A DNA stretch of 47,955 nucleotides from a virus: IMG/VR virus record IMGVR_UViG_3300049825_000166, positions 1 to 47,955 of that record; one strand, 5' to 3'. The notes beneath the pieces were generated by a model, which did not search any database, was not told the DNA's origin, and saw only the letters and a list, made by a program, of their open reading frames with translations. A program made the position numbers and the translations under genes. Below, one piece after another: positions 7,779-47,434 of the stretch. How positions within the stretch are numbered: the first letter of the stretch is position 1; each line of letters opens with the position of its first letter.

Positions 7779-7896
7779 TTTGTGGGTTCTCCCTTCCCGG
7801 TATGCTATGTAGAGTGGTATATGTTGTGTAGCTAACCCGCCATTGTACAGGGGGGAGGCAGCTAATGCCACGTGAAGCTATTGGAAATGGTTTGTG

Positions 7897-7905: not shown

Positions 7906-8007
7906 GGACCAAGGCAGTCCGGTTACGGCGAAACGTATAGGGCCTGCGAGCTACTCCCTTCGCCCAGGTCTTGTGCGTACGGGCTGTCCCTCCGGGAAGG
8001 AAACGTT

Positions 8008-15158: not shown

Positions 15159-16282
15159 GCTTAGCTGGCGTATCACGATCTAACCGTATGGACGTCCTGA
15201 AAAGGGAGGCAGTCCTACGGAAGCGATTGACCGAGCAGTATGGGTTCGCCTGGCGTTCAATCGGTGACCGCTTGTCTGAGATTCAATCCCGTGTCGGTGC
15301 CAACACTGTTACGCCCAGCATGGTCTTCGAACAGACTCGACTTCTCAACCTGGCCGGTCAAATACAAGATCAGATCAACAGCTTCGCATCTGCCGCTGCT
15401 ATCGGCATTAGCGAAGAGGATACCGCACTCGTACGTAAGGCGATGGAAGATGCTCAGCGTCAGATCCGTGAGGGTCTCATTGATCCCCCACCGGGTTTCA
15501 GTTTCGAACCACGGCTCCCTACGATGCAAGTGCTCGAGCTTGGTCGCATGATGGGTGATGACGAACCACTCGGGAAGCTGATTAGGAGCGCCGCACCACT
15601 GACGGCTGACCTCGTGCAACAAAGCCTAGTCGGGGGCCTTGTGGCCGGTCTGGGGCCTTCCCAAGTGGCAAGGAACATGGCTGCCGCTGGCGAGCTACCG
15701 TTGCAGAGGGCAAACCTGATCGCACGTACAGAAATGCTTCGTATCTACCGCACTACAACACTCGCAACGTATGCCGCGAACAGTGAGGTAGTTGAAGGCT
15801 GGATGTGGATGTCGGCGCTTGATCGACGTACGTGTCCCACATGTTGGGCAATGCATGGTACGAAACATAAGTTGAATGAAAAGATGGATACGCATCCCGC
15901 TTGCCGATGCACGATGGTACCGTTGACGAAGCCTTGGAGTAAATTAGGTTACAAGGACCACGAAACGAATCATCCAAGGTATGAAATCGCTTTGGGTGCG
16001 GTTCAGTTGGCCACGGTTGCCTATGCGATCCAAAAAGAGGTACTTGGGCCTATGCGCCACAAATTGTGGGTTGAGGGAGCAATTGAACTTCCTCACATGG
16101 TTCAACGTACTCATCACCCAGTTTGGGGAGGAGGACTTCGTCTACGTAATATCGAAGAAACTTTGGTAGCCGCTCAAAACAATGACATAGGTTTCTTTAG
16201 TCTGGAAGAGTTTGCCCTACTAGAAAAGCTAATGTCGGAGCTACGTCCAGCGTTGCGTGAAGAATTGGCAAAGGCCGGTTAG
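15155..16282 (+). CDS. MuF-type minor head (head morphogenesis) protein
   Basis: This gene encodes 375 residues from TTG 15155, overlapping the previous stop; an ATG at 15188 is an alternative. The MuF core is clear: ARTEMLRIYRTTTLATYAAN, then DRRTCPTCWAMHG and THPACRCTMVP, a zinc-binding Cys/His set. Such proteins sit in the head near the portal, and some are injected. The region after the MuF core (about 130 residues, FFSLEEFALLEKLMSEL) has no recognised domain. The gene's stop codon lies inside the tRNA-like element at 16277. Confidence 0.85.
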   Translation: MSLAGVSRSNRMDVLKREAVLRKRLTEQYGFAWRSIGDRLSEIQSRVGANTVTPSMVFEQTRLLNLAGQIQDQINSFASAAAIGISEEDTALVRKAMEDAQRQIREGLIDPPPGFSFEPRLPTMQVLELGRMMGDDEPLGKLIRSAAPLTADLVQQSLVGGLVAGLGPSQVARNMAAAGELPLQRANLIARTEMLRIYRTTTLATYAANSEVVEGWMWMSALDRRTCPTCWAMHGTKHKLNEKMDTHPACRCTMVPLTKPWSKLGYKDHETNHPRYEIALGAVQLATVAYAIQKEVLGPMRHKLWVEGAIELPHMVQRTHHPVWGGGLRLRNIEETLVAAQNNDIGFFSLEEFALLEKLMSELRPALREELAKAG

Positions 16283-16324
16283 TGATGGTTTCATCACATT
16301 TGGGTTCGATTCCCAAACTAATCA
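16277..16324 (+). other. tRNA-like mini-structure (acceptor stem, one hairpin, T-arm)
   Basis: GGTTAGT (16277-16283) can pair with ACTAATC (16317-16323), leaving A16324 as a discriminator-like base. TTGGG-TTCGATT-CCCAA (16300-16316) is a textbook T-arm with the seven-base TTCGATT loop. Between them GTGATG-GTTT-CATCAC (16282-16297) forms one hairpin where D and anticodon arms would be. No anticodon arm and no CCA are encoded, so it is not a normal tRNA. It could be a tRNA mimic, a processing signal or a remnant attachment site. Confidence 0.5.
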
Positions 16325-16327
16325 TGA

Positions 16328-16351
16328 CCCGACGGAGCGAGTCCGCTCGGG
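16328..16351 (+). other. Stem-loop ahead of the scaffold gene
   Basis: CCCGACGGA pairs with TCCGCTCGGG around GCGAG with one bulged base. No T-tract follows. It stands between the tRNA-like element and the scaffold ribosome site and may stabilise the downstream transcript or mark a processing site. Confidence 0.4.
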
Positions 16352-16375
16352 CTGCTAAACAGAAAGGAAGGCGCG

Positions 16376-22362: not shown

Positions 22363-22788
22363 ATGGCAATCACAACTAACCTGGACAAAGTTCGTCTGGA
22401 AATCGGGGACACCGAAGCTACCTCGTATCTTCTTTCAGATGATGAAATCAACTACTTCCTTACCGAGGAAAGCCAGAATGTGTTACGAGCGGCTTTTCGA
22501 GCTTGCGACGCTTTGGCTCGTAAGTTTGCTCGGGCATATGATTTTGAAACGGATGGCCAAAAGTTTCATCGTTCCCAAGCGTTTGAAGCATTTTCCAAAG
22601 CCGCTGATGCTCTCCGCAAGCGTGCAGGTATTAGTGAGTTTGGGAACACGAATAGTGGGGCAGGTACCATCAAGACTACACGTATCGATGGTTACTCTGA
22701 CGGAGATCAACCCACAAACGAAGATGTACTAACGACCAGTAGCAATCCACGACGTAGGTACTACGGACAGGAAGACAGAACACCATGA
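22363..22788 (+). CDS. Head-to-tail connector (adaptor) protein
   Basis: This gene encodes 141 residues. The helical pattern LDKVRLEIGDTEATSYLLSD, with DDEINYFLTE and RACDALARKFARAYDF, is typical of gp15/gp6-like adaptors that bind beneath the portal. It follows a GGGGAG ribosome site. The disordered C-terminus ends in an ATGA overlap with the glycosyltransferase gene, so the sugar cassette was inserted directly after it. Confidence 0.75.
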   Translation: MAITTNLDKVRLEIGDTEATSYLLSDDEINYFLTEESQNVLRAAFRACDALARKFARAYDFETDGQKFHRSQAFEAFSKAADALRKRAGISEFGNTNSGAGTIKTTRIDGYSDGDQPTNEDVLTTSSNPRRRYYGQEDRTP

Positions 22789-23939
22789 GAATACTTTGGC
22801 ACTCGAATGCACCTTGGGCTCCTTCTGGTTATGGGAACCAGACGGCCTTGGTCACCAAACGTTTGAAAGAAATGGGACACGAAGTAGCGATCTCCGCCTT
22901 CTACGGTATTCAAGGGGCGGCCATTGAATGGGACGGTATTCGGGTATACCCCGGAGGCTGGCAGCCCTACGGTAATGATGTCCTTGCGGCACACGCCACG
23001 GACTTCAAGGCCGACCTAATCATCACCCTTGCTGATATGTGGGTACTCGATCCTAACGTGCTCAAGCAGTTCCCTTGCGCTTCATGGGTGCCCGTAGACC
23101 ACGACCCACTACCCCCTAAGGTTCTTCATCACATCCTTGAATCAGAATGTGTGCCGATTGCGATGAGTAAGCATGGGATGAATGCCATGAAAGATGAGGG
23201 ACTTGATCCAATATATGTCCCACATTGTGTAGACACTGAATTCTGGGTTCCATATGGGCCGGAAGAGCGGGAAGCGGCCAGGGACCGACTAGGATGGCCT
23301 CAGGAGGCCTTTGTGGTTGGTTTTGTAGGCACCAACCGGGGTTACCCAAGCCGGAAGTCCCTGCCCCAATCCCTAATGGCGTTTGCGCAGTTCGTGTTGA
23401 GGCACCCGGACTCCTTAATGTACCTTCATACGGAACCCCATGGCGTTGTCGAAGGTATTCACCTTCCCACGTTGTGTTCGCGGTTGGGCCTCAATCCCGA
23501 CAATCTTCGTTGGTTTCCCCCAGACCAGTACATTGCAGGAGCTTCCCCTAAACATCTTCTCGAATGTTACAACGCAATGGATGTCTTGCTCCACCCGAGT
23601 ATGGGAGAAGGTTTTGGTATTCCTATTGTGGAAGCTCAGGCGTGTGGTACTCCCGTTATCACTACGTCATGGACTTCTATGCCAGAACTGACAGAGGTCG
23701 GTTGGTGCGTAGGAGGTGAGCCGTGGTGGACTACACAAAACTCATTCTGGAAGGTACCTAACATCAAGGAACTTGTCGACTCTTTGGAGTCCGCCTATCG
23801 GATGGCGGGAAGAATGCGCACCCGCGCTCGTGGGTTTGCGCTGAATTACGATGCCAACCTAGTAGTCAAAGAAGTTTGGTCAACGGCCCTTGAAACCATC
23901 GATTCAAGAATCAACGGTACTGTAGAAGTGATGGCATGA
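22785..23939 (+). CDS. Glycosyltransferase, GT-B fold (GT4-like)
   Basis: This gene encodes 384 residues. The N-terminal Rossmann domain starts MRILWHSNAPWAPSGYGNQT. The C-terminal domain has VGFVGTNRGYPSRK for the donor phosphate loop and the signature GEGFGIPIVEAQACGTPVIT with the paired Glu residues that hold the nucleotide sugar. It likely transfers a sugar with retention of configuration. Being first of a four-gene cassette amid structural genes, it may modify a virion protein, or modified DNA bases. Confidence 0.85.
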   Translation: MRILWHSNAPWAPSGYGNQTALVTKRLKEMGHEVAISAFYGIQGAAIEWDGIRVYPGGWQPYGNDVLAAHATDFKADLIITLADMWVLDPNVLKQFPCASWVPVDHDPLPPKVLHHILESECVPIAMSKHGMNAMKDEGLDPIYVPHCVDTEFWVPYGPEEREAARDRLGWPQEAFVVGFVGTNRGYPSRKSLPQSLMAFAQFVLRHPDSLMYLHTEPHGVVEGIHLPTLCSRLGLNPDNLRWFPPDQYIAGASPKHLLECYNAMDVLLHPSMGEGFGIPIVEAQACGTPVITTSWTSMPELTEVGWCVGGEPWWTTQNSFWKVPNIKELVDSLESAYRMAGRMRTRARGFALNYDANLVVKEVWSTALETIDSRINGTVEVMA

Positions 23940-24544: not shown

Positions 24545-25353
24545 TGAGAGTAGGATGGATTTCAGACCCTATCTCTGATTATCTCGGCGGAGCTGAATTG
24601 GTGGAGAGAGACCTGCTCGACACTTGTCCAATGGACGCGGAGATAATTCGTTACCAATCGGAACTTGAGCCCCTCCCCAATGTGGATGTGTTTGTTATCC
24701 ATAACGTAACTACCTTTACATCGCGGCTAGCTGAAAGGCTTTCCCGCAAGTCAACTCCTATCATTAAACAGGTTCACGACCTGTGGTTCCATGGCAATGT
24801 CGTACTTCGTAGTTTCCTTCTAGAGTCAGCTACCGTAGTGCTTTTTGGTTCCCAACTACATCGTAAAGCTTTCACTCACGAGGTGAAGGCCCCCTTTGTT
24901 GTTCGCCCCCCTGCCGTAAATGGCGCACGTTACGCCGAACCAAGCACCCATCGAGACAAGCCCCGAGCGGATGCCGTTGCTTGGGTGGGTCGTTTGTTCT
25001 TTGGTAAAGGAATTCAACAGGCTCTACGGTGGGCAGACTCAAACGAAAAAGACATTCATTTCTATGGTTGGGGACCAGAAGCAAGGAGCATCCCCACGAG
25101 CCGTTACTACGGACCTTTGGTGCCCGACGAAGTGCCTCAAGTTCTACAAGAGTACAGCGAATTTGTTTTCTTACCCACTATGAAAGAACCATTCGGGCGT
25201 TCGGTGGTGGAGGCTAAATTCAGTCGGTGTAATCTTATCCTCAACAGTAATGTTGGAGCGGCCGAGTGGTTAGAGCCGTGGAGTCAGATTACTAACTCTT
25301 GTCAAAACTTCTGGACACTTACTCAAGGGATCGCAAGGAAGGCAATCGTATGA
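24544..25353 (+). CDS. Glycosyltransferase, GT-B fold, compact
   Basis: This gene encodes 269 residues from ATG 24544; GTG 24541 is in frame but inside the overlap. It shows GWISDPISDYLGGAELVERD (GGAE loop), AVAWVGRLFFGKGI and EPFGRSVVEAKFSRCN, the EPFGxxxxEA donor-sugar signature. It is shorter than a normal GT4 enzyme, suggesting a reduced acceptor domain. Second GT-B member of the cassette. Confidence 0.8.
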   Translation: MRVGWISDPISDYLGGAELVERDLLDTCPMDAEIIRYQSELEPLPNVDVFVIHNVTTFTSRLAERLSRKSTPIIKQVHDLWFHGNVVLRSFLLESATVVLFGSQLHRKAFTHEVKAPFVVRPPAVNGARYAEPSTHRDKPRADAVAWVGRLFFGKGIQQALRWADSNEKDIHFYGWGPEARSIPTSRYYGPLVPDEVPQVLQEYSEFVFLPTMKEPFGRSVVEAKFSRCNLILNSNVGAAEWLEPWSQITNSCQNFWTLTQGIARKAIV

Positions 25354-26423
25354 ACATTCTCGTAACCGGATCAAGTGGGTTCATCGGAATGCATCTTGTC
25401 CCTGAGTTGGAGCTACGTGGTCATCGGGTATTCGGTATGGACATAAAAGATGGTGACCTGACCTTGCCCTTAGTGGAAGTGGGTCTCACCCGTTTCATCG
25501 AAGTCCATGGAGTGGAGTTGGTTATTCACCTTGCCGCTGTAGTCGGTAGAGAATTTGGGGAAGATGACGTTGCTAATACCATCCACAGTAACGCCCTAAT
25601 GACCACACGGGTAGCTCGTGCGACAGCGGCGGGTAAAGCTCGGCTTATGTACGTGTCTACGTCGGAGATTTACGGCGACCAAGGGCTTCGTGCCTGCCGT
25701 GAGTCTGACCGAAAAACCGTACCTCACAATCTGTATGGCCTGAGTAAGCGGTGGGGTGAAGAAGCGGCGACTCTCTACTGCCCTGTGGGGTTGCAAATCA
25801 TCCGTTTGTCTATGCCCTACGGGCCGGGCCTACCGGCCGGTCGAGGTCGTGCGGCCATCATCAACATGATCTGGCAAGCAACCCATAACAAGTCCATCCC
25901 GGTACACAAGGGGGCGATGCGTTCATGGTGTTGGATTGGGGATACGGCTAGAGGTATTGCGCTTGTGGCGGAGAATGGCGAGCGAGCTCAATCCATGCAC
26001 GCACTAGAAAATGGAATCGGCGCATACAACGTGGGTAATGACCTTGATGAACATACCATGATCGAGGTTGCCGATTATGCCTGCCAACTGGCCGGAGCGT
26101 CGCGTGAACTAATTCGTCTTACGGACGCACCTTCGAACCAGACTGTAATCAAAAGGCTTTCCATGGCAAAGCTTCGTGCCTTGGGATGGACACCAAAAGT
26201 GGATTTGTATGGTGGCATGGAAGCCACACACGAGGTTATCAAGCAGTTCTACACAAAGGAAGGAGAGGTATATGCCAGCCGAGAGGAACTTGCCGAATGT
26301 GTCAGAAACGCAACCCTCCGAGCCAACCCCACCGGAACCGCCAAGCGGTTTGACCACGCCGGAGGCGGATTCGGAGAAGGTCGTGGATGGCCAGCTCAAC
26401 GAGTGGGAGAAGATGGGAGTTAG
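25350..26423 (+). CDS. NAD-dependent nucleotide-sugar epimerase/dehydratase (extended SDR)
   Basis: This gene encodes 357 residues from ATG 25350. It has the NAD-binding GSSGFIG turn, LVIHLAAVVG, STSEIYGDQG and the catalytic YGLSK (Tyr-xxx-Lys). Extended SDR enzymes of this sort epimerise or dehydrate UDP-, GDP- or dTDP-sugars, so it can supply an unusual donor to the three transferases. The enzyme fold ends at about residue 310. The last 50 residues overlap, in another frame, the small gene at 26272, so the tail may be non-essential. Confidence 0.85.
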   Translation: MNILVTGSSGFIGMHLVPELELRGHRVFGMDIKDGDLTLPLVEVGLTRFIEVHGVELVIHLAAVVGREFGEDDVANTIHSNALMTTRVARATAAGKARLMYVSTSEIYGDQGLRACRESDRKTVPHNLYGLSKRWGEEAATLYCPVGLQIIRLSMPYGPGLPAGRGRAAIINMIWQATHNKSIPVHKGAMRSWCWIGDTARGIALVAENGERAQSMHALENGIGAYNVGNDLDEHTMIEVADYACQLAGASRELIRLTDAPSNQTVIKRLSMAKLRALGWTPKVDLYGGMEATHEVIKQFYTKEGEVYASREELAECVRNATLRANPTGTAKRFDHAGGGFGEGRGWPAQRVGEDGS

Positions 26424-36776: not shown

Positions 36777-37076
36777 TTACTTTCCCGCTTTATGGTCAAG
36801 GAGGTCGAGAAGTTCTTCGGCCTCCTTGACTGACGTGATAAGCCGTGCGACTCCCTTGGCTTTCCTTACCTCTTCAAGAGTGTGAGCTTGAATGTCGGTA
36901 AGTGTACTTTCACGGCCGGGCAGCTTTACCTCAAGCCCTACGAACCGTCCCCGATAGCACAGGATGACATCTGGGAGCCCCGCACGTTGGTAGTGGCCAC
37001 CAAACACCTTGAACGCAAAGGCCCCCCTCTTACGGAGGGCCTTTACGATGTTGCGGCTGAGTTGAGCTTCAGTCAC
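36777..37076 (-). CDS. VRR-NUC-type nuclease / resolvase-like protein
   Basis: This gene encodes 99 residues from GTG overlapping the previous stop. It shows the VRR-NUC core: QLSRNIVKALRKRGAFAFKV, then GLPDVILCYRGRFVGLEVKL, with Asp in PDVI and ExK in LEVK as catalytic residues, then a helix with IQAHTLEEVRKAKG. Stand-alone VRR-NUC proteins act as structure-specific nucleases or resolvases in phage recombination. Last gene of the leftward unit. Confidence 0.85.
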   Translation of the reverse strand: MTEAQLSRNIVKALRKRGAFAFKVFGGHYQRAGLPDVILCYRGRFVGLEVKLPGRESTLTDIQAHTLEEVRKAKGVARLITSVKEAEELLDLLDHKAGK

Positions 37077-37702
37077 TACAGGTCTTCAAGGTCCAGATCA
37101 TCGATGTCCTCGTCATCCTCGTCATCCTCGTCATCGTCGACTTTCTTGGACTTCTTCTTAGCTTTCTTCTTAGGGGCAGGCTCCTCATCTTCGTCATCTT
37201 CGTCATCTTCGTCATCATCTTCGATGTCTTCGTCATCTTCCTCAACGTCGTCATCGTCTTCTGTGTCATCGTCATCCAAGTCATCCGCATCGTCAACGTG
37301 AATGAACCCTTCGAAGGTCACACGGCTTCGTGCGGTGTAGCCTTCACGCGGAGCTTCCTTATCAATCTCAATGAAAAGCTCCGAGCCCTTGATAGCTGCC
37401 GCAATCTTGGCCAATTGCACCTTGGCCGGTACCTTCTTACCACATGCCTCGAGAAGCGTACGGAAGCGGCTGTATGCTTTGGGTGTGGCCCACAGAGTGT
37501 CCTTAAACTTCTTCTGGTCATACTTACCTCCGAGGAAGGCCATCGTGACCTCAAGGCCCGGAGTGTCTTTCTGGCCCGACGTTACCGGCTTGGCAGACAA
37601 GATACGCACCTTGTATGTGCCATTCTTGACACGAGGATTGCCTCCGCCCGAATCCTCGGCCTTTGCGAAGTCAACAATGAAATCTTCGACTGTCTTTGCC
37701 AT
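37076..37702 (-). CDS. Single-strand DNA-binding-like protein with very long acidic tail
   Basis: This gene encodes 208 residues. Residues 25-135 (VKNGTYKVRILSAKPVTSGQ, LEVTMAFLGGKYDQKKFKDT) resemble phage DUF669/SSB-like OB folds found beside Sak-type annealing proteins. From about 137 to the end it is Asp/Glu-rich with one basic block (PAPKKKAKKKSKK). The tail can serve as protein-docking arm, like the acidic tip of bacterial SSB but many times longer. It works with the Sak4-like and Cas4-like neighbours. Confidence 0.7.
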   Translation of the reverse strand: MAKTVEDFIVDFAKAEDSGGGNPRVKNGTYKVRILSAKPVTSGQKDTPGLEVTMAFLGGKYDQKKFKDTLWATPKAYSRFRTLLEACGKKVPAKVQLAKIAAAIKGSELFIEIDKEAPREGYTARSRVTFEGFIHVDDADDLDDDDTEDDDDVEEDDEDIEDDDEDDEDDEDEEPAPKKKAKKKSKKVDDDEDDEDDEDIDDLDLEDL

Positions 37703-37704
37703 GC

Positions 37705-38493
37705 TTAGTCCTGCTCTTTCTTGTAGTCATTCCACGCTTCGATTACCGTGGCCATGTTTGGTTTGTCAACGTAGTCGCCGAGGCGATTGGTACGGTCTTT
37801 GAGTGATTTGTGAATTGTGTCCTTACCCACACGCATACGGTCTTCCCATACGCGACGAACTTTGCCAGCCTTGTCTCGTTTGCGGACTTCGCGGGGTTCC
37901 ATGAAGCCCACTATAGCCACAGACAAGGCCGTGCCCCGTGATCCCGCCGGAAGATCTATGGTGACCGAATCAAGGATTTCCCTTTCTTTGTCAAGGAATT
38001 GGGCGCGGGGTAGCGCCGTGAAGACAATATGTGCAGGAAGGCCAAGGAAGGCGGACAACATACCAACCATCAATACCTTGCACCGGCCGAAATCTTGCAT
38101 TGTAGGCTGACCTCGGACACGGTTCTGCTTACGGCCTTCGGCCTCATTGAGTACGAAGTCCATGCATAGGTTCTGCATTCCGGTTAGGCCGTCAATAGCC
38201 AGCGATTCGTACTTGTGTTTTCCGCGTTTGTAATACCAGTAGACGTCCCCAAACTCCGGCCACTCTTCGATCTCGATGACCCGTGCCCCCGATCCAACTG
38301 CAGACCGCGTGCCCGCCGGTTCTTGGACGCTAAGGATCAGGCAGTTCGGCGCTGAAGCGGCGAAACGGGTCTTACCCGATCCTTGGCTACCGTATACACA
38401 AGCTTTCACGTGGGGACTAGTGTCATCCACGGATTTAATGCGTTTGACGGTTTTGCGGATAGACTCTACGTCATGTGTTTTACCAACAGACAT
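37705..38493 (-). CDS. Sak4-like RecA-family recombination ATPase
   Basis: This gene encodes 262 residues from ATG overlapping the nuclease stop. Walker A is YGSQGSGKTRF (residues 34-44). YESLAIDGLTGMQ supplies Walker B. An NAT-like AAATP-binding core of single RecA domain fits the Sak4 group of single-strand annealing proteins in phages. It is flanked by a Cas4-like exonuclease and an SSB-like gene, a standard phage recombination set. Confidence 0.8.
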   Translation of the reverse strand: MSVGKTHDVESIRKTVKRIKSVDDTSPHVKACVYGSQGSGKTRFAASAPNCLILSVQEPAGTRSAVGSGARVIEIEEWPEFGDVYWYYKRGKHKYESLAIDGLTGMQNLCMDFVLNEAEGRKQNRVRGQPTMQDFGRCKVLMVGMLSAFLGLPAHIVFTALPRAQFLDKEREILDSVTIDLPAGSRGTALSVAIVGFMEPREVRKRDKAGKVRRVWEDRMRVGKDTIHKSLKDRTNRLGDYVDKPNMATVIEAWNDYKKEQD

Positions 38494-39449
38494 CAGTCCT
38501 CCTCGTAGGTGTTACGTGAGTTGAACTTCATTCGGACTACTTCAGAAATATCGCCCCCCATAAGTTGGATAGAACAAGGATCTAGGTATGAACACATCCA
38601 CTGACACTCCTTCATGGGTGACCGAGGAAAGTGGTTGAGTGCCTCAGCTTGTTTGATTTCATGTGTGGTCATCATTAGTTCACGCATGAGTTGCTTGACA
38701 AGCGCCGGATCACGGGGTAAGCGTGTGCGCCGAAACCAGGTGTCACTCCTTAGCTTGAGCATTTCAAGAAAGGGTTTGTATTTCTTAGGGTCAAGGCCCT
38801 GGTTGAGAATTTCACGATAATACGAATACACATCACACTTTATGTTCCTGCGTTGCTCAAGTCCTCCGGATTTCAGAACCTTTGGCAATGTGGGGGGTAC
38901 CGTGATGACCTCATTGAACATGGCTCCGCGGAGGGGTTTGTACCCGAGCTTCTCAGCTGCCCAGAAGTAACGAGCCAACTGAGTATCGAGTAGCATAAAT
39001 GTCTCAGGCATGAAGTTCTTGACAGTCTTGTGGTCCCAGATCCAAAGGCCTCCATCGGGCTCCTCCACAACGAGGTCGATAATGAAACGAAACTTATCTC
39101 CATTGGGAAGTGTAACGGTCTCGTCAAGCTCTGAGTCCACCACGTGAAGCTTGTCGTCGACGCCGTGCCAATGTTGGAGGTACGAGGTCATGATGCGCTC
39201 AGTTTCGGCGGGCAAGTCCCCATACTCTTCTTGCTCTTCCTCGAATAGTTCCCCGAACCCGGCTGCAAGCTCGGCGTGGCAGACACGCCAGTCATTACCA
39301 TCGTAGTGGTTCATAAGCATTTGGTGAAGCCAATCGCCTCGCTTTAGGGGTAGTGCTGGGCGCTTGGGTTTCAGGCCGAGTACGTATGCGAATTCGTATT
39401 GCTTCGGACAACGGCGGTAGCACTTGGCTTTCGAGTTTGAGATGATCAT
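38493..39449 (-). CDS. Cas4/RecB-like iron-sulfur exonuclease
   Basis: This gene encodes 318 residues from ATG 39449, with AGGTGAG upstream. The long frame to 39515 overlaps the previous gene. The PD-(D/E)xK core shows RFIIDLVVEEPDGG and WIWDHKT. Cys10/Cys14 (KCYRRCPKQYEF) and the C-terminal CQWMCSYLDPC give the cysteine set that holds a [4Fe-4S] cluster in Cas4/AddB enzymes. It resects DNA ends to load the Sak4-like annealase. Confidence 0.85.
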   Translation of the reverse strand: MIISNSKAKCYRRCPKQYEFAYVLGLKPKRPALPLKRGDWLHQMLMNHYDGNDWRVCHAELAAGFGELFEEEQEEYGDLPAETERIMTSYLQHWHGVDDKLHVVDSELDETVTLPNGDKFRFIIDLVVEEPDGGLWIWDHKTVKNFMPETFMLLDTQLARYFWAAEKLGYKPLRGAMFNEVITVPPTLPKVLKSGGLEQRRNIKCDVYSYYREILNQGLDPKKYKPFLEMLKLRSDTWFRRTRLPRDPALVKQLMRELMMTTHEIKQAEALNHFPRSPMKECQWMCSYLDPCSIQLMGGDISEVVRMKFNSRNTYEED

Positions 39450-39453
39450 TGCG

Positions 39454-39690
39454 TCACTCACCTGTTTGCAGTCCGAGGCCGAATTTTCTTGTGGCTTGAG
39501 CAACCTTGAACACATTGTCTGCTAACTTCCCCACATACTCACGCTCCTCTTCTGTAAAGCTCTTGGCCAAAAGGCCATTTCGATTAGACGGTTGGTGAAG
39601 TTCACGAAGCCTATGGCCTATAGTGTCGAGTATGATAAACCATGCAAGACACATACTTCCGGCCGCTTTTCTTTTGGTTAGCCTTCCCAT
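39454..39690 (-). CDS. Unknown small protein
   Basis: This gene encodes 78 residues from ATG 39690, overlapping the polymerase 3' end by 13 bases. Helical, with a charged C-terminal half (FTEEEREYVGKLADNVFKVA). It sits between polymerase and nuclease genes and is possibly a small replication accessory. No family is recognised. Confidence 0.5.
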   Translation of the reverse strand: MGRLTKRKAAGSMCLAWFIILDTIGHRLRELHQPSNRNGLLAKSFTEEEREYVGKLADNVFKVAQATRKFGLGLQTGE

Positions 39691-42155
39691 GGTCCAGTTT
39701 CTCCCCAATGTTGACCCACTTCCATATCCGCCACGATCGGGACCGTAATGTCCGGGCCGAAGGTGTCTTTGACGTAGTCAAGGTCTTCCATGGTATCCTT
39801 GATTTCACGACAGTAACGGTTGACATACTTGTATGGATCCTTTGGCGGCCCGGCTTTCACCTGGAACAAGAGAGAGTCGTGGACCGTACCCACAATGAAA
39901 GCCCGATCCTGAGGCAATGAGTCGTGAAGTCGTACCAGTGACATGAGCATTAGGTCAGAAGCAAATGACTGGACAGGTGAGTTGATGGCTTGCCGCTCAG
40001 CCTCGTTGCGTACTCCCTTTTCTTGTGATTGGATGTCCGGTAGGTGCCGAATACGGCCAATAGGTGACACGACCCGTTTGTAGCGATTGGCAAGCCGACG
40101 TTGGCGTTCGTGCCAGGGCCGCAGACGTGGGTAGTCGTTGAAGAAACCGTTACGGTCTTTTTCAGCTTCCTCAAGGGTGACCACCAGCTCGTAGTTATCG
40201 AATGCATATTGCACGAACTTTTCTGCGCCCATGCCGTAGATATACCCGAAATTCACCGCCTTGGCTTTTTTACGTTCTTCCTTAGCTATTTGTTCTTGAA
40301 TCTTACCCGTCATCTTCACGGCACGATTCATATGGATATCTTCGCCGCGCAGATACTGGCTGATCATTGTGGTTTCGTTAGCGAGCCATGCCGCGATACG
40401 TAGTTCAACTTGCGAATAGTCAGCCTGCACGAAAAACCAACCGGGCGGAGCACCAAGAATGGAACGAATAAAGGGGTCTCGGGGTACTTGTTGGATACCA
40501 CCTTCACCAGACAAGCGGCCAGTGACTGTACCGAAAAGTTTATAGTTGGAATGAATGCGGCCATTGTTATCCATATGTTGGAACATGAATGGCAGAAGAT
40601 AACGACTAAGATAAAGTTCCCATTTGCGGTATTTCATGATGGCAAGTGGAATACGATGTTGATGCTGGAGTCTCAGAAGTACAGATTCCTTAGTGCTCCG
40701 GGCACCCCTAGCCGTCTTTTCAATAACCGGAAGACCTAAGTGGTCGAACAGAAGCTTAGCCATATGGACGGGGGATCGGGGATTGAAAGGGTTGGCCTTG
40801 ACCCGACCGGCCTTCGTCTTGGTATCGGTTAGCCCTTCTGGCACTTGTTTACGGATCCAAGCCAGTATCTTTTCACGATTTTCAACAGACTGATCGTGAC
40901 GTTTTTGCCAACGTTGGGGATCAAGCCAAACACCCGCACGCTCAATATCCACCAATGCGTTCGAAGCTGGCATCATCAGGTGCGTGAATACCTTTTCCAA
41001 CCGGGCATCTTTAACCAATTCACGTTTGAACGGGTCACGTAAGCGTCGTGTGTAATCTGTGTCTTTGCCATTATACTCTACGAGGCGCTTTAGCGGCATC
41101 CCATAGGCATCCCTAAGGTCCTCCCCTACGTCGTAGGCCTCGGCCCCTAGTTCGGTGCGCGAAAGGTTCTTAAGGCCTTTGGGACGATTCTCCTCCAGCA
41201 TGTGAGCCGCAAGCATGGTGTCGAACCCCTGTGGGATGTTCACGCCTTTCGCGGCCATCCATCTTGCGTCGAACTTGCCGTTATGGCCTATGTACTCACA
41301 GTTAGGTCGCTCGAGCGCCGGACGAAGGTAGTCAAGGATTACTTGCGGATTTGGCCAGGGTTGAGACTCATGCCATAGGGGTACGACCACAGAAAGGCCA
41401 GGGTCCCACGTGAATGAGATGGATACGATACACGAGTCTTCACCATGCCACTCTTGAAAGTTGGTACGCTTATGGCTTTTACGCTTGTCTGCGAAGGTGA
41501 ACGTTTCAATGTCGTATGCAAGGACATCCACCTTCATCAGTTTCTTACGAAGAGCGACTAAGGCTTCTTTCGTGCGTACCACTTTGGTGAGGGTTTCCGG
41601 GCTAGTAGCTTCGCCACGGGTGAGCGCCCCGAATCGTTGCATATCCATAGCAAACGTCTTCGCCCATGAAGGGTTACGGAGAATAGCGGCTGGGTGAAGT
41701 GTGGGCATGATGGCCGCTTCCTCACCATTCAACCTTTGGCGTTCAATGGTCCCGGCATACTTAGTAATCCCAGACCTGCCAAGCAAAGCTTGAAGAGCAA
41801 CGTTGCCGAGCAAGAGTACGAATCGTGGATGCACCTTGTCAATCTCAGCAAAGAGGTAGTGGGCCGCACACGTCTTGATTTCAGCTCGTTCTGGGGTACG
41901 GTTATCAGGCGGACGACACTTGACCACATTGGTGATGTAGCACTGAGCGCGATCGATAACCGCTAGCTCGGCCAGGGCCTTGTCAAGTAGCTTACCTGCC
42001 GAACCGAGGAATGGCGAACCTTCACTGTCTTCACGTTGGCCAGGTGCTTCACCCACAATCATGATGTCCGCATCTAATGGTCCCGAGCCCGGCATACAGA
42101 CATAATTCGCGGACTCGTTCAAAGGACACAAGACGCAATTGTGGTCGAAGAGCAT
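39678..42155 (-). CDS. Fused family-4 uracil-DNA glycosylase and DNA polymerase I
   Basis: This gene encodes 825 residues. Residues 1-180 are an apparently intact family-4 UDG: cluster cysteines C7, C10, C80 and C96, motif GEAPGQRED (35-43) and the second motif LHPAAIL with His154. A 3'-5' exonuclease follows (LAYDIETF with D215/E217, HNGKFDARW, YNGKDTDYT). The polymerase palm and fingers carry QADYSQVELR, KAVNFGYIYGM and VHDSLLF (Ser in place of the usual Glu after His-Asp). It replicates phage DNA and may remove or sense uracil ahead of synthesis. A UDG-like N-terminus is known in the SPO1 polymerase. Confidence 0.92.
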   Translation of the reverse strand: MLFDHNCVLCPLNESANYVCMPGSGPLDADIMIVGEAPGQREDSEGSPFLGSAGKLLDKALAELAVIDRAQCYITNVVKCRPPDNRTPERAEIKTCAAHYLFAEIDKVHPRFVLLLGNVALQALLGRSGITKYAGTIERQRLNGEEAAIMPTLHPAAILRNPSWAKTFAMDMQRFGALTRGEATSPETLTKVVRTKEALVALRKKLMKVDVLAYDIETFTFADKRKSHKRTNFQEWHGEDSCIVSISFTWDPGLSVVVPLWHESQPWPNPQVILDYLRPALERPNCEYIGHNGKFDARWMAAKGVNIPQGFDTMLAAHMLEENRPKGLKNLSRTELGAEAYDVGEDLRDAYGMPLKRLVEYNGKDTDYTRRLRDPFKRELVKDARLEKVFTHLMMPASNALVDIERAGVWLDPQRWQKRHDQSVENREKILAWIRKQVPEGLTDTKTKAGRVKANPFNPRSPVHMAKLLFDHLGLPVIEKTARGARSTKESVLLRLQHQHRIPLAIMKYRKWELYLSRYLLPFMFQHMDNNGRIHSNYKLFGTVTGRLSGEGGIQQVPRDPFIRSILGAPPGWFFVQADYSQVELRIAAWLANETTMISQYLRGEDIHMNRAVKMTGKIQEQIAKEERKKAKAVNFGYIYGMGAEKFVQYAFDNYELVVTLEEAEKDRNGFFNDYPRLRPWHERQRRLANRYKRVVSPIGRIRHLPDIQSQEKGVRNEAERQAINSPVQSFASDLMLMSLVRLHDSLPQDRAFIVGTVHDSLLFQVKAGPPKDPYKYVNRYCREIKDTMEDLDYVKDTFGPDITVPIVADMEVGQHWGETGPWEG

Positions 42156-42607
42156 TAGAGTGCCTTAGATTCGTGGTCTTGTCCACGAAAGTGATCTACG
42201 GTAATCCCAAACGTAACAAGATTGCCCGAGGCACCTTCACGATAAGGCAAACCATAACTTACCTTACTGATTCCAGCTTGGTGGATCAACATGGCACACC
42301 GGAGACAAGGTTCGTGGGTGGAAAACAACGTACTGCCCCGAAGACTAATACCTAAGTCGGCCGCTCGAGCAATAGCGTTAGCCTCCGCATGGAGAGTGCG
42401 TGTACATCCTCCTTCAGGCCCTATTTGACAACCGCCGTCAATACAGTGGCGCTGCCCAGAAGGAGCCCCGTTGTATCCATGGCTAAGGATATGCCAATCT
42501 TTTGATATGATAACACAACCGACTTGTGCCCGCTCACATGTAGCCCGTTGAGCAAAGAGACTAGCTATTTCATGGAACAATTGACGACGCCAAATCCGAT
42601 CAGGCAC
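42155..42607 (-). CDS. Deoxycytidylate (dCMP) deaminase
   Basis: This gene encodes 150 residues from GTG with AAGGAAGG five bases upstream. The zinc site is HAEANAIA (His73, Glu75) and EPCLRCAM (Cys101, Cys104), as in ComEB/T4 Cd-type enzymes. It converts dCMP to dUMP, feeding thymidylate synthesis. TAATG coupling to the polymerase ties it to replication. Beside a putative dCMP-modifying enzyme it may balance pyrimidine pools. Confidence 0.9.
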   Translation of the reverse strand: MPDRIWRRQLFHEIASLFAQRATCERAQVGCVIISKDWHILSHGYNGAPSGQRHCIDGGCQIGPEGGCTRTLHAEANAIARAADLGISLRGSTLFSTHEPCLRCAMLIHQAGISKVSYGLPYREGASGNLVTFGITVDHFRGQDHESKAL

Positions 42608-43445
42608 GAGTACCTTCCTTCACCAATCGCTCAAGCCGTGAAAGCTCGGGCTTGAAGATGTGCAATGACATCATCCACATCGTGAGCGTGCCCGGTACCA
42701 CACTTTGCCATTGCGTCATTCCTGGTTCCCGTTCAAAGGGTTCGCGGTCCTTTAGTTGTTTGAGCACCCATTGCCCGAGTCGAGCGGCCAGGTATACATC
42801 ATCAACAAAATGCCGGAACAGGTCGCAAGACCGAATCACATAGTTGACATGGAGTTGGCTATCACGACGCATGAAGTGGTAACCGAGTGAGCACGGTACC
42901 CGTTCGCCGTGATGTGCTCCGGTGTCTTCTGGGAACCAGATGGGTAGGTACGCTTGACGAGTGGTGGGTTCACGCCACAAGAGATTGACCACGTCGTCTA
43001 GGTCACCGTAACGGTAACGGATCCCCGTGCGTGATTCAAGTTTCCCAAGCGGCTTAGAAAAGGCGTCATCGGCGAACCGAGGCCACATTCGTTCCATGTA
43101 TGTGTGACTGAATTCACCTTGTTCTTTGTGTTTCTCGACGTTACCCGCGTACCAAGGCCATAGGTGAAATGTGTCCCCCGGGTTGAGCGGGTCACCACCA
43201 ACACGCTCCTGAAACTGTAGTTCGGCCCACGGCGTTGAAGGCTTGACGTCATCATGTAGGTCTTGCCACGTCGCCGGGATCTGGTATTCTACGACTACGT
43301 TTTGGGTTTCGAATGTTTCAACCTGTGGAACGTTTTTGAGGGCCTGCCAATGCCCGGTGTTTACTTCCCTTCCCGACTGTAAGAGCTCGTACATTGCATA
43401 GTGATACAAGGTATCAAAGTCGGGGTGATCACGAATAGTCTCCAT
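42600..43445 (-). CDS. Thymidylate-synthase-fold enzyme, probable dCMP hydroxymethylase type
   Basis: This gene encodes 281 residues. The TS core is visible: RQAYLPIWFPED (phosphate-binding Arg region), VPCSLGYHF with catalytic Cys185, and VIRSCDLFRHFVDDVYLAAR. Counting from the Arg-Ser pair, the residue matching E. coli ThyA Asn177 is Asp216. This change converts dUMP to dCMP specificity in T4 dCMP hydroxymethylase and in engineered TS. The expected reaction is therefore addition of a one-carbon group to dCMP C5. Family membership is strong, the substrate is inferred. It is coupled by TAATG to a second TS-like gene. Confidence 0.8.
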   Translation of the reverse strand: METIRDHPDFDTLYHYAMYELLQSGREVNTGHWQALKNVPQVETFETQNVVVEYQIPATWQDLHDDVKPSTPWAELQFQERVGGDPLNPGDTFHLWPWYAGNVEKHKEQGEFSHTYMERMWPRFADDAFSKPLGKLESRTGIRYRYGDLDDVVNLLWREPTTRQAYLPIWFPEDTGAHHGERVPCSLGYHFMRRDSQLHVNYVIRSCDLFRHFVDDVYLAARLGQWVLKQLKDREPFEREPGMTQWQSVVPGTLTMWMMSLHIFKPELSRLERLVKEGTRA

Positions 43446-44341
43446 TACTCTCCCTTCGGCCTACGTGGGTGGGCCTGGTATGAACCGGCTTTGTGTTCCG
43501 GCAGTTCGATGAACATCTTCGGTAGTAGCTCCAACGAGTCAAGGGGTATTGACGGGAACCCCGGCCCTTCTTTGACAATCAGGTATCGTTGGAACATGCG
43601 TTGAAGCTGATTGTATTTGATGTCTTCCAAAGGCTTTTCTTCTTGCCTCCACCCTTCGAGCTGGCCCATCATCTTACGGGTCATGGCCAGTACGGGGTAG
43701 TCTGCGCCTTCCCTACGGGCCTTAGTGGCCCACTTGCTTTCTCGTTCAAACGTGTCAACGTAAGACAAAGATTTGAACCCGTGCCAAGCCAGCGCGTCAA
43801 GGCACCAACGGAACTTGATATCTTCAACTTCGAAGCCCCCATCACGTGCAATCTCACGGGCGATGACCCAAGCTAGTGCAAGGTCAATGGCACCCACCCA
43901 TGCGATGTAGCTCACGCGTGAATGCATCACAAGTGTGGGGGGCATATCTCTCTTGCTACTATTCTGGTATGTGAATGCCATCATACAGTTTCCCCAAGTG
44001 TGGCGCTCCACTCCATCTGCCGTACGAGCCGACGCACAGAACATCTGTGCAATCATCCCTCGCTTGCCATGGCTCTTGTTGATCATGCGGCAACGAGACA
44101 AGAAGTTGCTGACTTGGAATGGATCCAGGTAGTCACGTTGCAAACGAGGAAATCTAGCTTTGGTCATCCACAGGTCGGTGCCGATGTCGATATCGAATTC
44201 CATGGACTCAGCCTGCAAGACGTGATTGAACATTACAGCTTGGGTAGCACCATAGTTGTCCAGTTGGTCCCTACGGGACCAGAGCATGTGACTACAGGCT
44301 CCGAGCCAAAGGTCGGTGAGAGTGGGGAAAGATTTATGCAT
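43445..44341 (-). CDS. Second, divergent thymidylate-synthase-fold protein
   Basis: This gene encodes 298 residues. GNCMMAFTYQ (Cys119), then PPTLVMHSRVSYIAWVGAID fits the TS catalytic-Cys and nucleotide-binding segments, with Arg142 and, eleven residues on, Asp153 at the dUMP/dCMP selector position. Spacing is three residues longer than in the neighbour. It may be a second pyrimidine C5-modifying enzyme, or a partner subunit in a heterodimer, since TS active sites form across a dimer. The fold call is weaker than for the neighbouring gene. Confidence 0.6.
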   Translation of the reverse strand: MHKSFPTLTDLWLGACSHMLWSRRDQLDNYGATQAVMFNHVLQAESMEFDIDIGTDLWMTKARFPRLQRDYLDPFQVSNFLSRCRMINKSHGKRGMIAQMFCASARTADGVERHTWGNCMMAFTYQNSSKRDMPPTLVMHSRVSYIAWVGAIDLALAWVIAREIARDGGFEVEDIKFRWCLDALAWHGFKSLSYVDTFERESKWATKARREGADYPVLAMTRKMMGQLEGWRQEEKPLEDIKYNQLQRMFQRYLIVKEGPGFPSIPLDSLELLPKMFIELPEHKAGSYQAHPRRPKGE

Positions 44342-44810
44342 CTACATTGGTAAGATCTACGTGTGGATGAAATCCAATAGTAGTACCTAACTGACTAGCG
44401 CCGGGAACGTACTCTAAGGTTTGTGTCCCTAACGCCACAGGTACAGGTCCGCCAAGAGGTAATGTCGTTTGGCCGTCGTGCGGGTTGTCTTTCCAGTTCC
44501 TCTTGCTGACGACCTTGTTCCAGGTGTCAATCACTTGTTGTTCAAGGTCGAAACCTTCGAACCGGGCCACGCTCATGAGATAGATAACAATATCTGCGGC
44601 AGCGTCCTTGACCGCTTCGGTATGTTCTTCGTGTGTACCACGGATGCCTTGGTCACGCTTGAGCATGGCATGGGCCATCTCACCGACTTCTTCGGTCACT
44701 CCGAGCAGAGCCCGCATGGCGTCCATGTTTGGGAAGTTATCGGCTTCCCAAGCATCACGCGCTTGCTGAACCTCACGAAGTGTTGTTACAGATTTCGCAT
44801 TACTCGACAT
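44334..44810 (-). CDS. MazG-type nucleotide pyrophosphohydrolase
   Basis: This gene encodes 158 residues with GGGAGGAAGC before the ATG. The all-alpha NTP-pyrophosphatase motifs are present: VTEEVGEMAHAML (Glu40/41/44) and VKDAAADIVIYL (Asp69/73). Such enzymes hydrolyse dNTPs to dNMP and pyrophosphate. Next to dCMP-type TS enzymes it could remove unmodified dCTP, as dCTPase does in T4, or act on signalling nucleotides. The C-terminal 50 residues are unordered. Confidence 0.85.
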   Translation of the reverse strand: MSSNAKSVTTLREVQQARDAWEADNFPNMDAMRALLGVTEEVGEMAHAMLKRDQGIRGTHEEHTEAVKDAAADIVIYLMSVARFEGFDLEQQVIDTWNKVVSKRNWKDNPHDGQTTLPLGGPVPVALGTQTLEYVPGASQLGTTIGFHPHVDLTNVDA

Positions 44811-45340
44811 GCTTCCTCCCAGTTTCTGATCTCGTGTGCGGATTCGTCAATCGCACTGGCTACGAAAGGGTTGATGGTGACCATAAAGTCGGTGGTGGGG
44901 ATGATGTACCCCATAGATAGGGCTTTGTACCAATCCCAAATCTGTTGAATGTTGTCTTTCACGGGTTGAGGTTGGCCGCTCAAAATCAACTCATCTACGT
45001 GAGGTAGACAAATGAATACCAGCGCGGGCAAATGTGTCAAGATACCTTGATACATACGTACTTCGGGGACGGTCAGTTGACATTCTCGTCTGAGGCAGTT
45101 GGAATAAGCCAACTCCGAATAATACAGCCTGTCGAATACGGGGATACGTGGGGGGTTGGAAACTGTATGCCCGAAAGCTACCTGGTAATCCCTTCTCACA
45201 CTGTCTGCCAAAGTCTCACGATTACCTCTGTTGCGATCAAAAACCCGGTATCGTTCTGGATCTAGTGGCCCACCTTCGGCCGTTAGCTGTTTCATCAACG
45301 TGGTTTTGCCCGCTCCATCTGGGCCTTCAAAGATCACCAT
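44786..45340 (-). CDS. Deoxynucleoside monophosphate kinase, thymidylate-kinase-like
   Basis: This gene encodes 184 residues from ATG 45340, sharing an A with the upstream TAA. The longer frame to 45493 lies inside the preceding gene. Walker A is GPDGAGKTT (6-14) and the DR(Y)xxS motif is VFDRLYYSELAYS. It phosphorylates a dNMP using ATP. In this setting the substrate may be a modified dCMP (T4 gp1 analogue) or dTMP. Confidence 0.82.
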   Translation of the reverse strand: MVIFEGPDGAGKTTLMKQLTAEGGPLDPERYRVFDRNRGNRETLADSVRRDYQVAFGHTVSNPPRIPVFDRLYYSELAYSNCLRRECQLTVPEVRMYQGILTHLPALVFICLPHVDELILSGQPQPVKDNIQQIWDWYKALSMGYIIPTTDFMVTINPFVASAIDESAHEIRNWEEACRVMRNL

Positions 45341-45621
45341 TATTCCGGCTTCCTTAGGTAGACTTTGTTCATCTGTCTGCGATGCGGTACCCGTTGTATC
45401 AAACCCATTTTCTCTAAGCAAGTTAGGTCCCAACGCAGCTGACGGTACGTCGGTTGCGGTAATCCCGCCAGGGTAACATCGTCTACTGCACAATCCAATA
45501 CAGCGGGCTCAAGAATACCGAATGGCGGGTGCGGCGGTCCCGGATCTTTACGATAACACAAACTGCGGATGGTAGACATCAACACCTGCCGTCTCATTCG
45601 TATCACTTGTGGTCGAGTCAC
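45340..45621 (-). CDS. Winged-helix-like small protein
   Basis: This gene encodes 93 residues from GTG overlapping the helicase stop. The C-terminal segment TYRQLRWDLTCLEKMGLIQR looks like a recognition helix and wing of a winged-helix fold. It might regulate the replication operon or help initiator loading. No family is recognised. Confidence 0.55.
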   Translation of the reverse strand: MTRPQVIRMRRQVLMSTIRSLCYRKDPGPPHPPFGILEPAVLDCAVDDVTLAGLPQPTYRQLRWDLTCLEKMGLIQRVPHRRQMNKVYLRKPE

Positions 45622-47012
45622 TTTTCTCCCTTCAATTTCGAAGTGATTTGCTCAACTCTTTTTGGGTTTTCGGTCAATAGCTGGGCAACGTCCTTTTTCA
45701 ATTGCATTGCCTCATAGTTGACCTCTTGGCGTGTACCATGTGCGATCAGGTAGTCGTATTGTAGTGTTCTCTTTTCTTGGTACTTTTCAATACGACGGAT
45801 GAACTGGTCATGGATAACATAGCTTTCCGAGATGGAATAGATCATCATGGTGTCAGCGGCGCTCAGGTCGATAGACTCACGAGCCGTGGCTAGCTGAGCT
45901 ATGAAAGCCACCTTGTCTTTCGTGTCTTGGAAATCCTTGATACGACGTTTACGTTCGGCTCCACGAGGTACGCCACCATGAAACATGATAACGCGAAAGC
46001 CGGCTTTCTTAGCCGCTAGGGCCGCATCGCGTAGCTCAGGCAAGAACCGACAACCAACGACAACCTTGAGGATACCTTCATCGGCATAATGTTGGAATCT
46101 TGCTTCAGCTACACGCACTTGGTCTGACCCCACACGTCGGTAGCGGCCGTCGGGCAGCTTCAGCCAGCCACCGGCTATCTGGGAACACCGTAGGTGCCTA
46201 CTGAGTACGATAACCGAGGTTACCGTTACGTCACCCGCCTGCACTACTGACTTCTTTTCCATATCAGCGTAAGCCTTTAGACCTCTTCCGGTCAAATGGT
46301 AACGAATCACATTCACCTGTGGTGGTTCCCCTGGCACATAGGGTTCGATGACCACAAAGGTTTTCATGCGTTTCATCACCCACTTTAGGTTGATGTATCG
46401 CAACACTTCGTGACCGCCATGACCGCCAAAGATAGCAATGCGGTTCTTGAATGCGCTGAAGTGTGTGCCAAAAAGGCCAGGATCCCAGAACTTTGCTTGA
46501 CCAAATACATAGAAGGGTTTGCGGTGGAACATCGTGCCCGTCATGAGCAAGCGAAAACGGGCTCGGCGTCCTAGGTCGTACACCTTCTTAGATTGGAGTG
46601 TGGAAGGGTTGCCGATACGATGGGCTTCATCTACGATAACGATGTCAGCGTCAAAGTCAATTAGTTCGTGGTTGTCCATCGCAACCCAACGTCGGCTACC
46701 TTTCTCTGGGTAATATCTCTTGAATGTAGATTCGAAGTTGACCATTTTCCACTCAAGCGGTATGTCGTCTGGTAAGTGTTTTGGGATTTCATCCTCCCAC
46801 ACGCCGAGTGCGTCGATGGGTGCGATAACGAGCACACGTCGAGCACCCTCGAGTAGGTGCATACATGCGGCGAAGTCAATAGCTGTTTTAGTCTTGCCCC
46901 ATCGCATCGGCACCTGTAGACCGCCGCCACGTTGTTTCACAAGCCGCTTCAGTGCTCGGTGCTGGTGAGGTCTAGGCTTGGTCTTGTATTGGTATTTCAA
47001 GGTATTTCCCAT
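45618..47012 (-). CDS. DEAH/SNF2-type superfamily 2 helicase
   Basis: This gene encodes 464 residues. I favour ATG 47012; an upstream TTG at 47030 is possible. Motif I is PMRWGKTKTA, motif II VIVDEAHRI, motif III LLMTGTMF. In the second domain are FHGGVPRGAERKRRI and motif VI QFIRRIEKY. Such phage SF2 enzymes, similar to SNF2 and RapA types, translocate on duplex DNA during replication or repair. N- and C-terminal extensions are short, so only the core motor is present. Confidence 0.85.
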   Translation of the reverse strand: MGNTLKYQYKTKPRPHQHRALKRLVKQRGGGLQVPMRWGKTKTAIDFAACMHLLEGARRVLVIAPIDALGVWEDEIPKHLPDDIPLEWKMVNFESTFKRYYPEKGSRRWVAMDNHELIDFDADIVIVDEAHRIGNPSTLQSKKVYDLGRRARFRLLMTGTMFHRKPFYVFGQAKFWDPGLFGTHFSAFKNRIAIFGGHGGHEVLRYINLKWVMKRMKTFVVIEPYVPGEPPQVNVIRYHLTGRGLKAYADMEKKSVVQAGDVTVTSVIVLSRHLRCSQIAGGWLKLPDGRYRRVGSDQVRVAEARFQHYADEGILKVVVGCRFLPELRDAALAAKKAGFRVIMFHGGVPRGAERKRRIKDFQDTKDKVAFIAQLATARESIDLSAADTMMIYSISESYVIHDQFIRRIEKYQEKRTLQYDYLIAHGTRQEVNYEAMQLKKDVAQLLTENPKRVEQITSKLKGEK

Positions 47013-47434
47013 TCCTCTTTGGTGGGCCAAAAGTATGGGAGGTCGTTAGGAACCTTGGGCCAGAATTTGCCATAGTGGTTAGGATCTTTACGCACCAAGT
47101 TTGATCTGTGGGATCTATGGAAAACTTGGAGCCCTAACCATGGGGGCAACCAAACGTACGAACCGGGCTTTGGCTTTCGTTCCTCAAACCACGGTAGTAA
47201 CGTGTCTTTGAATCCTCGGCTAAGCCACTCCCGGCAAACTATGTATCCGTATAGGGCTAAGGCTTGCTCACACCCCCTCCACATATGAACGGCTGGGTGG
47301 TTTTGCCATCCATAAGTAGGGTCATCTAATGCCGTCCAGATTTGTTTGGCCTCAACTCGTTGTTTCCCTAACCGCTTGTTATCTAAAACTTGTGTGGAGT
47401 GATTGAAGTCGCTATATGGGAGAAAGGTTTGCAT
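46997..47434 (-). CDS. Pyrimidine-dimer DNA glycosylase-like protein (MSMEG_6728-like)
   Basis: This gene encodes 145 residues from ATG 47434. MQTFLPYSDFNHSTQVLDNK, RLGKQRVEAKQIW and HPAVHMWRG are the pattern of an actinobacterial family linked to T4 endonuclease V-type glycosylases. If active, it would excise UV dimers. Many members are uncharacterised, so the repair role is inferred from family annotation. It overlaps the helicase start. Confidence 0.7.
   Translation of the reverse strand: MQTFLPYSDFNHSTQVLDNKRLGKQRVEAKQIWTALDDPTYGWQNHPAVHMWRGCEQALALYGYIVCREWLSRGFKDTLLPWFEERKPKPGSYVWLPPWLGLQVFHRSHRSNLVRKDPNHYGKFWPKVPNDLPYFWPTKEEWEIP

Follow-up and report, generated by a model that had tools for sequence, protein, structure and literature searches.

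Intact and catalysis-lost family-4 UDG domains fused to a family A DNA polymerase in an environmental phage and its relatives

What does a uracil-DNA glycosylase (UDG) domain do when it forms the N-terminus of a phage DNA polymerase? This question is raised by a gene in the virus record IMGVR_UViG_3300049825_000166, the whole of which (positions 1 to 47,955; 47,955 bp) is referred to here as the window. A first-pass annotation proposed that the gene encodes a complete family-4 UDG joined to the replicative polymerase, with uracil removed or sensed at the fork.

Gene structure and neighbourhood

The fusion is encoded at 39678..42155, as first annotated, but that annotation gave no strand: the gene runs from 42155 to 39678 on the minus strand, starts with ATG and comprises 825 codons without an internal stop, while the plus-strand reading is stop-rich. 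Three domains follow one another in the 825 aa chain: a family-4 UDG domain (residues 1-178; 41622..42155, minus) identified with Pfam UDG (residues 22-164, E-value: 2e-33), TIGR00758 and PDB 4zbx, a 3'-5' exonuclease domain (residues 192-380; 41016..41582, minus; Pfam DNA_pol_A_exo1 over the same residues, E-value: 2e-16) and a family A polymerase domain (residues 432-819; 39699..40862, minus; Pfam DNA_pol_A over the same residues, E-value: 3e-80). No substitution of exonuclease residues D215, E217, D296 and D365 or of polymerase residues D579, K632, H759 and D760 occurs in 48 aligned sequences. The exonuclease is thus as complete as had been claimed, and the presence of polymerase motifs A, B and C together with the DxE/D/D residues identifies the protein as a family A polymerase with proofreading. 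An AlphaFold2 model of the fusion from 48 aligned sequences has a pLDDT of 92.5 and a pTM of 0.89, and its polymerase part resembles Klenow-type enzymes (Z 34-37). The UDG fold was assigned from sequence; the VIA-align and Foldseek lists for the full model were filled by polymerase structures. A stop or frameshift between the domains, which the annotation had raised as a possible objection, was not found in the ORF, and an assembly artefact can be excluded because dozens of other, independent contigs encode this fused chain as well.

The fusion belongs to a replication cassette with the order helicase, kinase, MazG/dUTPase, TS_B, TS_A, dCMP deaminase, UDG-Pol, PDDEXK exonuclease, Sak4, DUF669 and VRR nuclease. 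In the window these genes include, all on the minus strand, a SNF2/DEAD-type helicase (45618..47030), a deoxynucleotide (thymidylate-like) kinase (44786..45493, with a TTG start that is the longest possible), a MazG-like/dUTPase-like pyrophosphohydrolase (44334..44810, annotated at the same position as a dUTPase in relatives), the thymidylate-synthase-fold enzymes TS_B (43445..44341) and TS_A (42600..43445), a dCMP deaminase (42155..42607) whose stop overlaps the polymerase start (TAATG), a PD-(D/E)XK (Cas4/RecB-like) exonuclease (38493..39515), a Sak4-like recombinase (37705..38493) and, beside the latter, a DUF669-like protein whose long, low-complexity tail is acidic (37076..37702). With small insertions or replacements, the order is common to phages of Streptomyces, Gordonia, Mycobacterium, Pseudomonas, Serratia and Yersinia and is also found in nearly all of the intact and degraded viral loci described below. 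No other DNA polymerase was detected among the window genes scanned, and a primase is encoded elsewhere in the window. As the sole polymerase among these genes, adjoining the helicase, Sak4 and exonuclease genes, the fusion can reasonably be called a replicative polymerase. Promoter and terminator scans gave signals at or below shuffle level. Outside the cassette, a tRNA-Ser (CGA) gene was identified between head genes at 16272-16355 (+).

Family membership of the UDG domain

The N-terminal domain scores 155.0 bits against TIGR00758 ("UDG family 4"; cut-off 125.3 bits), which, together with the uninterrupted reading frame into exonuclease and PolA, bears out the proposed fusion of a family-4 UDG with a polymerase. 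The narrower NF040953 (Arch_udg) cut-off was not reached (164 vs 250 bits). Membership in UdgX was rejected for three reasons. First, the domain scores 117 bits against a UdgX cut-off of 190 bits. Second, its motif A is GEAPG rather than GEQPG. Third, the sequence contains no KRRIH. Among solved structures, the family-4 UDGs 4zbx (E-value: 5e-36) and 1ui0 (E-value: 2e-33) are the closest.

The domain contains four cysteines in the 4Fe-4S-type spacing of family-4 UDGs (C-x2-C ... C-x15-C), which are predicted to bind the cluster: C7 and C10 within CVLC (42126..42137, minus), invariant in 48 aligned sequences and in both the intact and the cysteine-only clades defined below, and C80 and C96 within an aligned segment (41868..41918, minus), also invariant. 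Motif A, GEAPGQRED, occupies residues 35-43 (42027..42053, minus; GEAPG at 35-39), the TN motif is present (N76), and motif B, HPAAILRN, occupies residues 154-161 (41673..41696, minus; HPAAILR at 154-160, with H154 and R160). Both motifs agree with the family-4 definitions GE(A/G)PG and HP(S/A)..R (PMC10359453), and the alignment places the four cysteines, GEAPGQRED and the HPA motif with His154 where the first-pass annotation had them. H154 is invariant in the intact clade and R160 in the intact and cysteine-only clades. The standalone family-4 enzymes TthUDGA (1ui0) and Sulfolobus UDG (4zbx) share the cluster cysteines, GE(A/G)PG..E, TN and HPA..R with the window's domain but are not fused to a polymerase. 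The aligned standalone enzymes also lack a fifth cysteine, C20 (42096..42098, minus), that is invariant in the main cassette lineage, including its catalysis-lost members.

Distribution and known relatives

The UDG-exo-Pol architecture is already known; its intact state and a natural series of losses are the new part. Pseudomonas phage PaBG and relatives (11 phages) were described with this architecture in 2020, and the PaBG UDG domain was proposed to remove uracil (PMC7412058). By the arrangement seen in PaBG and SPO1, where exonuclease and PolA follow a UDG-superfamily domain in a single chain, the window's protein is of the same type, and its domain order matches that of PaBG gp205 and the Lupandier jumbo-phage DNA polymerase I. 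However, the PaBG domain falls below the Pfam UDG cut-off and, in our alignment of gp205 (L023, 5605-8703), lacks the cluster cysteines, motif A (GEAPG) and the motif B HP with its histidine. A similar contrast applies to Bacillus phage SPO1. As the first-pass annotation stated, its DNA polymerase gp31 carries a UDG-like N-terminus on a family A polymerase, as do those of its kin (tblastn; SPO1 E-value: 7e-13), but a functional parallel is not supported, as the SPO1 domain has no cluster cysteines, QENP in place of GEAPG and S in place of N76. Thus the PaBG and SPO1 domains are without the catalytic residues that a large environmental family, including the window, retains. The UDG-containing Pol I of Thermus phage phiLo does keep the cluster cysteines and catalytic motifs, but this 1175 aa protein is very distant (branch length 5.0) and no cassette genes are annotated beside it. 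It matches the deposited structure 9qhs from residue 34 to residue 1175, numbered on the annotated ORF, and the deposited chain is 33 residues shorter at its start; our literature search found no publication describing this structure.

A viral scan with the single sequence found no relatives, and a profile scan of IMG/VR found at least 590. Among phage-collection records, 161 align with 80% or more of the query. The search for polymerases of the same domain order suggested by the first-pass annotation therefore succeeds in PaBG, SPO1, phiLo and the IMG/VR set. Only four of 80 GTDB loci (L104, L105, L149 and L138) contain the fusion, and the phage cassette accompanies it in three; in the remainder, PolA matches begin past query residue 130 and represent cellular PolA without UDG. 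Within the data searched, the fusion therefore appears to be a viral trait, and a cellular origin was rejected.

Loss of catalytic residues and selection on the domain

An alignment of 98 proteins was sorted by catalytic and cluster residues. All of C7, C10, C80, C96, E36, P38, G39, N76 and H154 are present in 65 of the 98, the window's protein included, a share that is biased upward because the 80 viral relatives were chosen by similarity to mostly intact queries. In sixteen proteins (the L086-L103 group and Zuko), the four cysteines remain, whereas E36, N76 and H154 are gone together, along with loop 42-51 (including F49 and G51). PMBT14, P744, Serbin and LysYB1 retain the cysteines and H154, but N76 is absent and motif A is degraded to GDxPN or a comparable sequence. 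The cluster has been lost as well in Gordonia phages, Muddy, SPO1, EalM132 and PaBG. In Muddy, a cultured mycobacteriophage (L009, 5812-8157), what is left of the UDG on the polymerase is truncated, has lost catalysis and goes unrecognized by Pfam.

On a polymerase tree (quick search, SH-aLRT supports, midpoint root), the window groups with L024-L026 (support 100), the Actino-type degraded set forms one clade (support 100) and PMBT14, P744 and Serbin lie beside the intact MW202455 (support 95). As the two degraded sets are separate, catalysis was lost at least twice in the cassette family. Based on parsimony and on the intact standalone family-4 enzymes, we infer that the intact domain is ancestral.

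Every catalytic and cluster residue is invariant in 62 intact sequences whose polymerase identity falls to about 40%. In this clade the UDG domain evolves no faster than the polymerase (identity 0.463 vs 0.468 in the 40-50% bin), while in the cysteine-only clade its identity is the lower of the two (0.441 vs 0.574). Nei-Gojobori dN/dS values for the domain, some with saturated dS, were 0.05-0.18 in six close intact pairs, 0.08-0.32 in cysteine-only pairs (mostly below 0.21, with one pair at 0.32) and 0.26 and 0.49 in two cluster-less pairs. The catalysis-lost clade (support 100) keeps C7, C10, C20, C80, C96, G117, G129, I130 and R160 at 100%; of these, C20, G117, G129, I130 and R160 are common to the intact and cysteine-only clades. 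It has also fixed E119, S128, K132, R134, T152 and G163, which vary in the intact clade. This pattern, in a clade less divergent than the intact one, looks like changed function rather than decay. At the level of sequence, these comparisons show that the UDG, exonuclease and polymerase active sites of the window's protein are intact and all under purifying selection, and that the UDG domain is retained under purifying selection in relatives that lack its active site.

Probable uracil excision and possible DNA holding

Because the hydrolytic motifs are strictly conserved, the window's domain likely excises uracil, and the earlier suggestion of a potentially active N-terminus is upheld to that extent. 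The explanation that we favour, and consider fairly probable, is a single-chain replicase whose family-4 UDG excises uracil near the site of synthesis and gives an extra grip on DNA. In this chain the Fe-S UDG would occupy the N-terminal place where cellular Pol I has its 5' nuclease. Since it is covalently linked to the polymerase, the UDG would act close to synthesis. Uracil would most likely arise as dUMP misincorporated for dTMP, with dUTP misincorporation as the simplest source; the MazG/dUTPase-like neighbour would form the first barrier and the UDG the back-up, and the abasic sites would be left for host (or phage) nucleases.

A point against this explanation is that, if the glycosylase acted on the template strand, it would leave abasic sites that block synthesis. 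A possible partner for processing them is the predicted product of a pyrimidine-dimer DNA glycosylase family gene at 46997..47434 (minus; PF03013, E-value: 1e-22; MSMEG_6728 family, E-value: 5e-52), which overlaps the helicase start in the replication operon and has no match in PHROGs. T4 endonuclease V, of the pyrimidine-dimer glycosylase family, also cleaves abasic sites. The gene is not a core partner, since no more than three other loci were seen to carry it; the scanned window genes yielded this Pyr_excise-family protein but no phage AP endonuclease.

The survival of the domain after loss of catalysis suggests, in part by analogy, a second and non-catalytic role such as DNA holding. Two points make holding the most economical choice: R160 is universal in the intact and cysteine-only clades, and a double role is known for vaccinia D4. 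In UdgX, R184 of the same motif B has a role in substrate binding (PMC10359453). In vaccinia, the UDG D4 serves the polymerase as a processivity factor, and D4 catalytic-site mutants still replicate in culture according to a study cited in the same article, which describes conflicting data on the need for poxvirus UDG catalysis (PMC10253040). The poxvirus D4/A20/E9 holoenzyme resembles the window's protein in that its viral replicase incorporates a UDG, and the part that D4 plays in replication is reported to be separable from catalysis. However, D4 is a family-1 UNG and a separate subunit working with a family B polymerase, whereas the window's domain is family 4 and fused to a family A polymerase; homology was rejected on this basis and the comparison is one of analogy.

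The D4 precedent and the several lineages that keep the domain under purifying selection without catalytic residues could also mean that the UDG is mainly a structural, DNA-tethering (processivity) module and that uracil excision is incidental in the window's protein. We regard this as rather unlikely, because a structural role would not require all catalytic residues to be invariant across the deep divergence of the window's clade.

The dCMP deaminase and predicted modified bases

The first-pass annotation also coupled the UDG to the adjacent dCMP deaminase and, by its comparison with SPO1, implied an hmU-DNA setting. The overlap of the deaminase stop with the polymerase start agrees with such coupling, as does the presence of the deaminase beside 36 of 39 intact UDG-Pols; however, it equally accompanies all 17 of the UDG-Pols that kept the cysteines and lost catalysis. 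Locus L031 contains the helicase, the kinase and an intact UDG-Pol, and no TS_B, TS_A, deaminase or MazG gene was detected between the kinase and the UDG-Pol (3600-8000). Similarly, the flanks of MaInes and vir526, both with an intact UDG, contain no deaminase or TS genes. Given these counts and L031, deaminase and glycosylase do not co-vary, and the claimed coupling is weakly supported.

The SPO1-like part of the proposal depends on the thymidylate-synthase-fold pair. TS_A, of the thymidylate-synthase superfamily, has the catalytic Cys, and its best PDB sequence match and nearest solved relative is the CMP hydroxymethylase MilA (E-value: 3e-8), followed by 9iqc, whose chain is named thymidylate synthase. 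In the fold search, the entry title of 9iqc is that of a riboflavin-dependent dCMP enzyme, a relative of the dCMP hydroxylase AfhB of phage HY126. Against TS_A, the L. casei mutant 1njc, which is specific for dCMP, outscores the wild type. TS_B has no Pfam match and no PDB sequence match, and profile-profile comparison with TS_A gave no hit; its Cys119, Arg142 and Asp153 are invariant, and its model (pLDDT 88) matches MilA and the phage dCMP hydroxylase AfhB first, with TM-scores of 0.4-0.56 that indicate likeness at the fold level only. Eleven residues past the phosphate arginine (E. coli position 177), Asp is found in 63 of 63 TS_B and 71 of 78 TS_A sequences. The seven Asn rows of the TS_A alignment include SPO1, LysYB1, EalM132, M6 and PaBG, five phages outside the cassette. 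Asp177 switches preference to dCMP and is enriched, as is co-occurring dCMP deaminase noted, in phage contigs with modified cytosine (PMC8670742). The TS homologue neighbouring the polymerase in SPO1 is thus of the dUMP (Asn) type, whereas the window's neighbours are of the Asp type, and with the five named phages as internal controls the hmU setting implied by the analogy was rejected. An additional gene annotated as an FAD-dependent thymidylate synthase in MW202455 fits with TS_A and TS_B not making dTMP. From the Asp at position 177 and the fold similarity to MilA and AfhB, modified cytosine rather than hmU is therefore the better prediction for the cassette phages, one residue and a fold likeness being its basis. 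Specific coupling of the UDG to the deaminase or to an hmU-DNA lifestyle is accordingly quite unlikely.

Conserved across the cassette family, TS_A and TS_B (42600-44341, minus) are possibly a pair making modified dCMP, either hydroxymethyl or hydroxy. Possible targets for decoration by a glycosyltransferase and a nucleotide-sugar epimerase encoded in the virion block (22785-23936 and 25299-26420, +) are the virion itself and a modified base. In MW202455 (L002, 1839-5602; intact UDG-Pol), a DNA ligase is annotated in the same cluster as the FAD-dependent thymidylate synthase.

Less likely readings: uracil sensing or an inherited relic

A further reading is that the UDG pocket senses uracil in the template and stalls the polymerase without excision, in the manner of read-ahead by archaeal family B polymerases. 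The position of the UDG on the polymerase and the retention of R160 in the intact and cysteine-only clades fit this reading, but we think it very unlikely, since hydrolytic motifs A and B are kept in full and the archaeal read-ahead pockets are unrelated and do not hydrolyse. That the fusion is an ordinary relic, inherited as part of an architecture old and widespread in phages and with neither uracil excision nor a second role mattering much, is scarcely credible given the low dN/dS and invariant active sites.

Significance

Two things are new here: a UDG that is intact in a large environmental family, in contrast to the published PaBG domain without catalytic residues, and the loss of catalysis at least twice in that family with the domain still under purifying selection. 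The replication role of poxvirus D4 has been described as unique among DNA glycosylases (PMC10253040). We tentatively raise the possibility, which we hold to be somewhat less probable than not, that phages made a glycosylase a built-in replicase module independently of poxviruses, with the fold holding the polymerase on DNA, excision optional, the active site repeatedly discarded while the Fe-S fold was kept, and cytosine probably replaced by a modified base. Cultured phages with the same cassette and a degraded domain (Muddy, Serbin and PMBT14) are available for comparison, and L031, in which TS_B, TS_A, deaminase and MazG were not detected, is a natural test of the cassette. Comparing the intact family with its naturally dead sister lineages, an experiment already laid out by nature, could tell repair and DNA-holding roles inside a replicase apart, and the phage series therefore bears on a question that is still debated for poxvirus D4.
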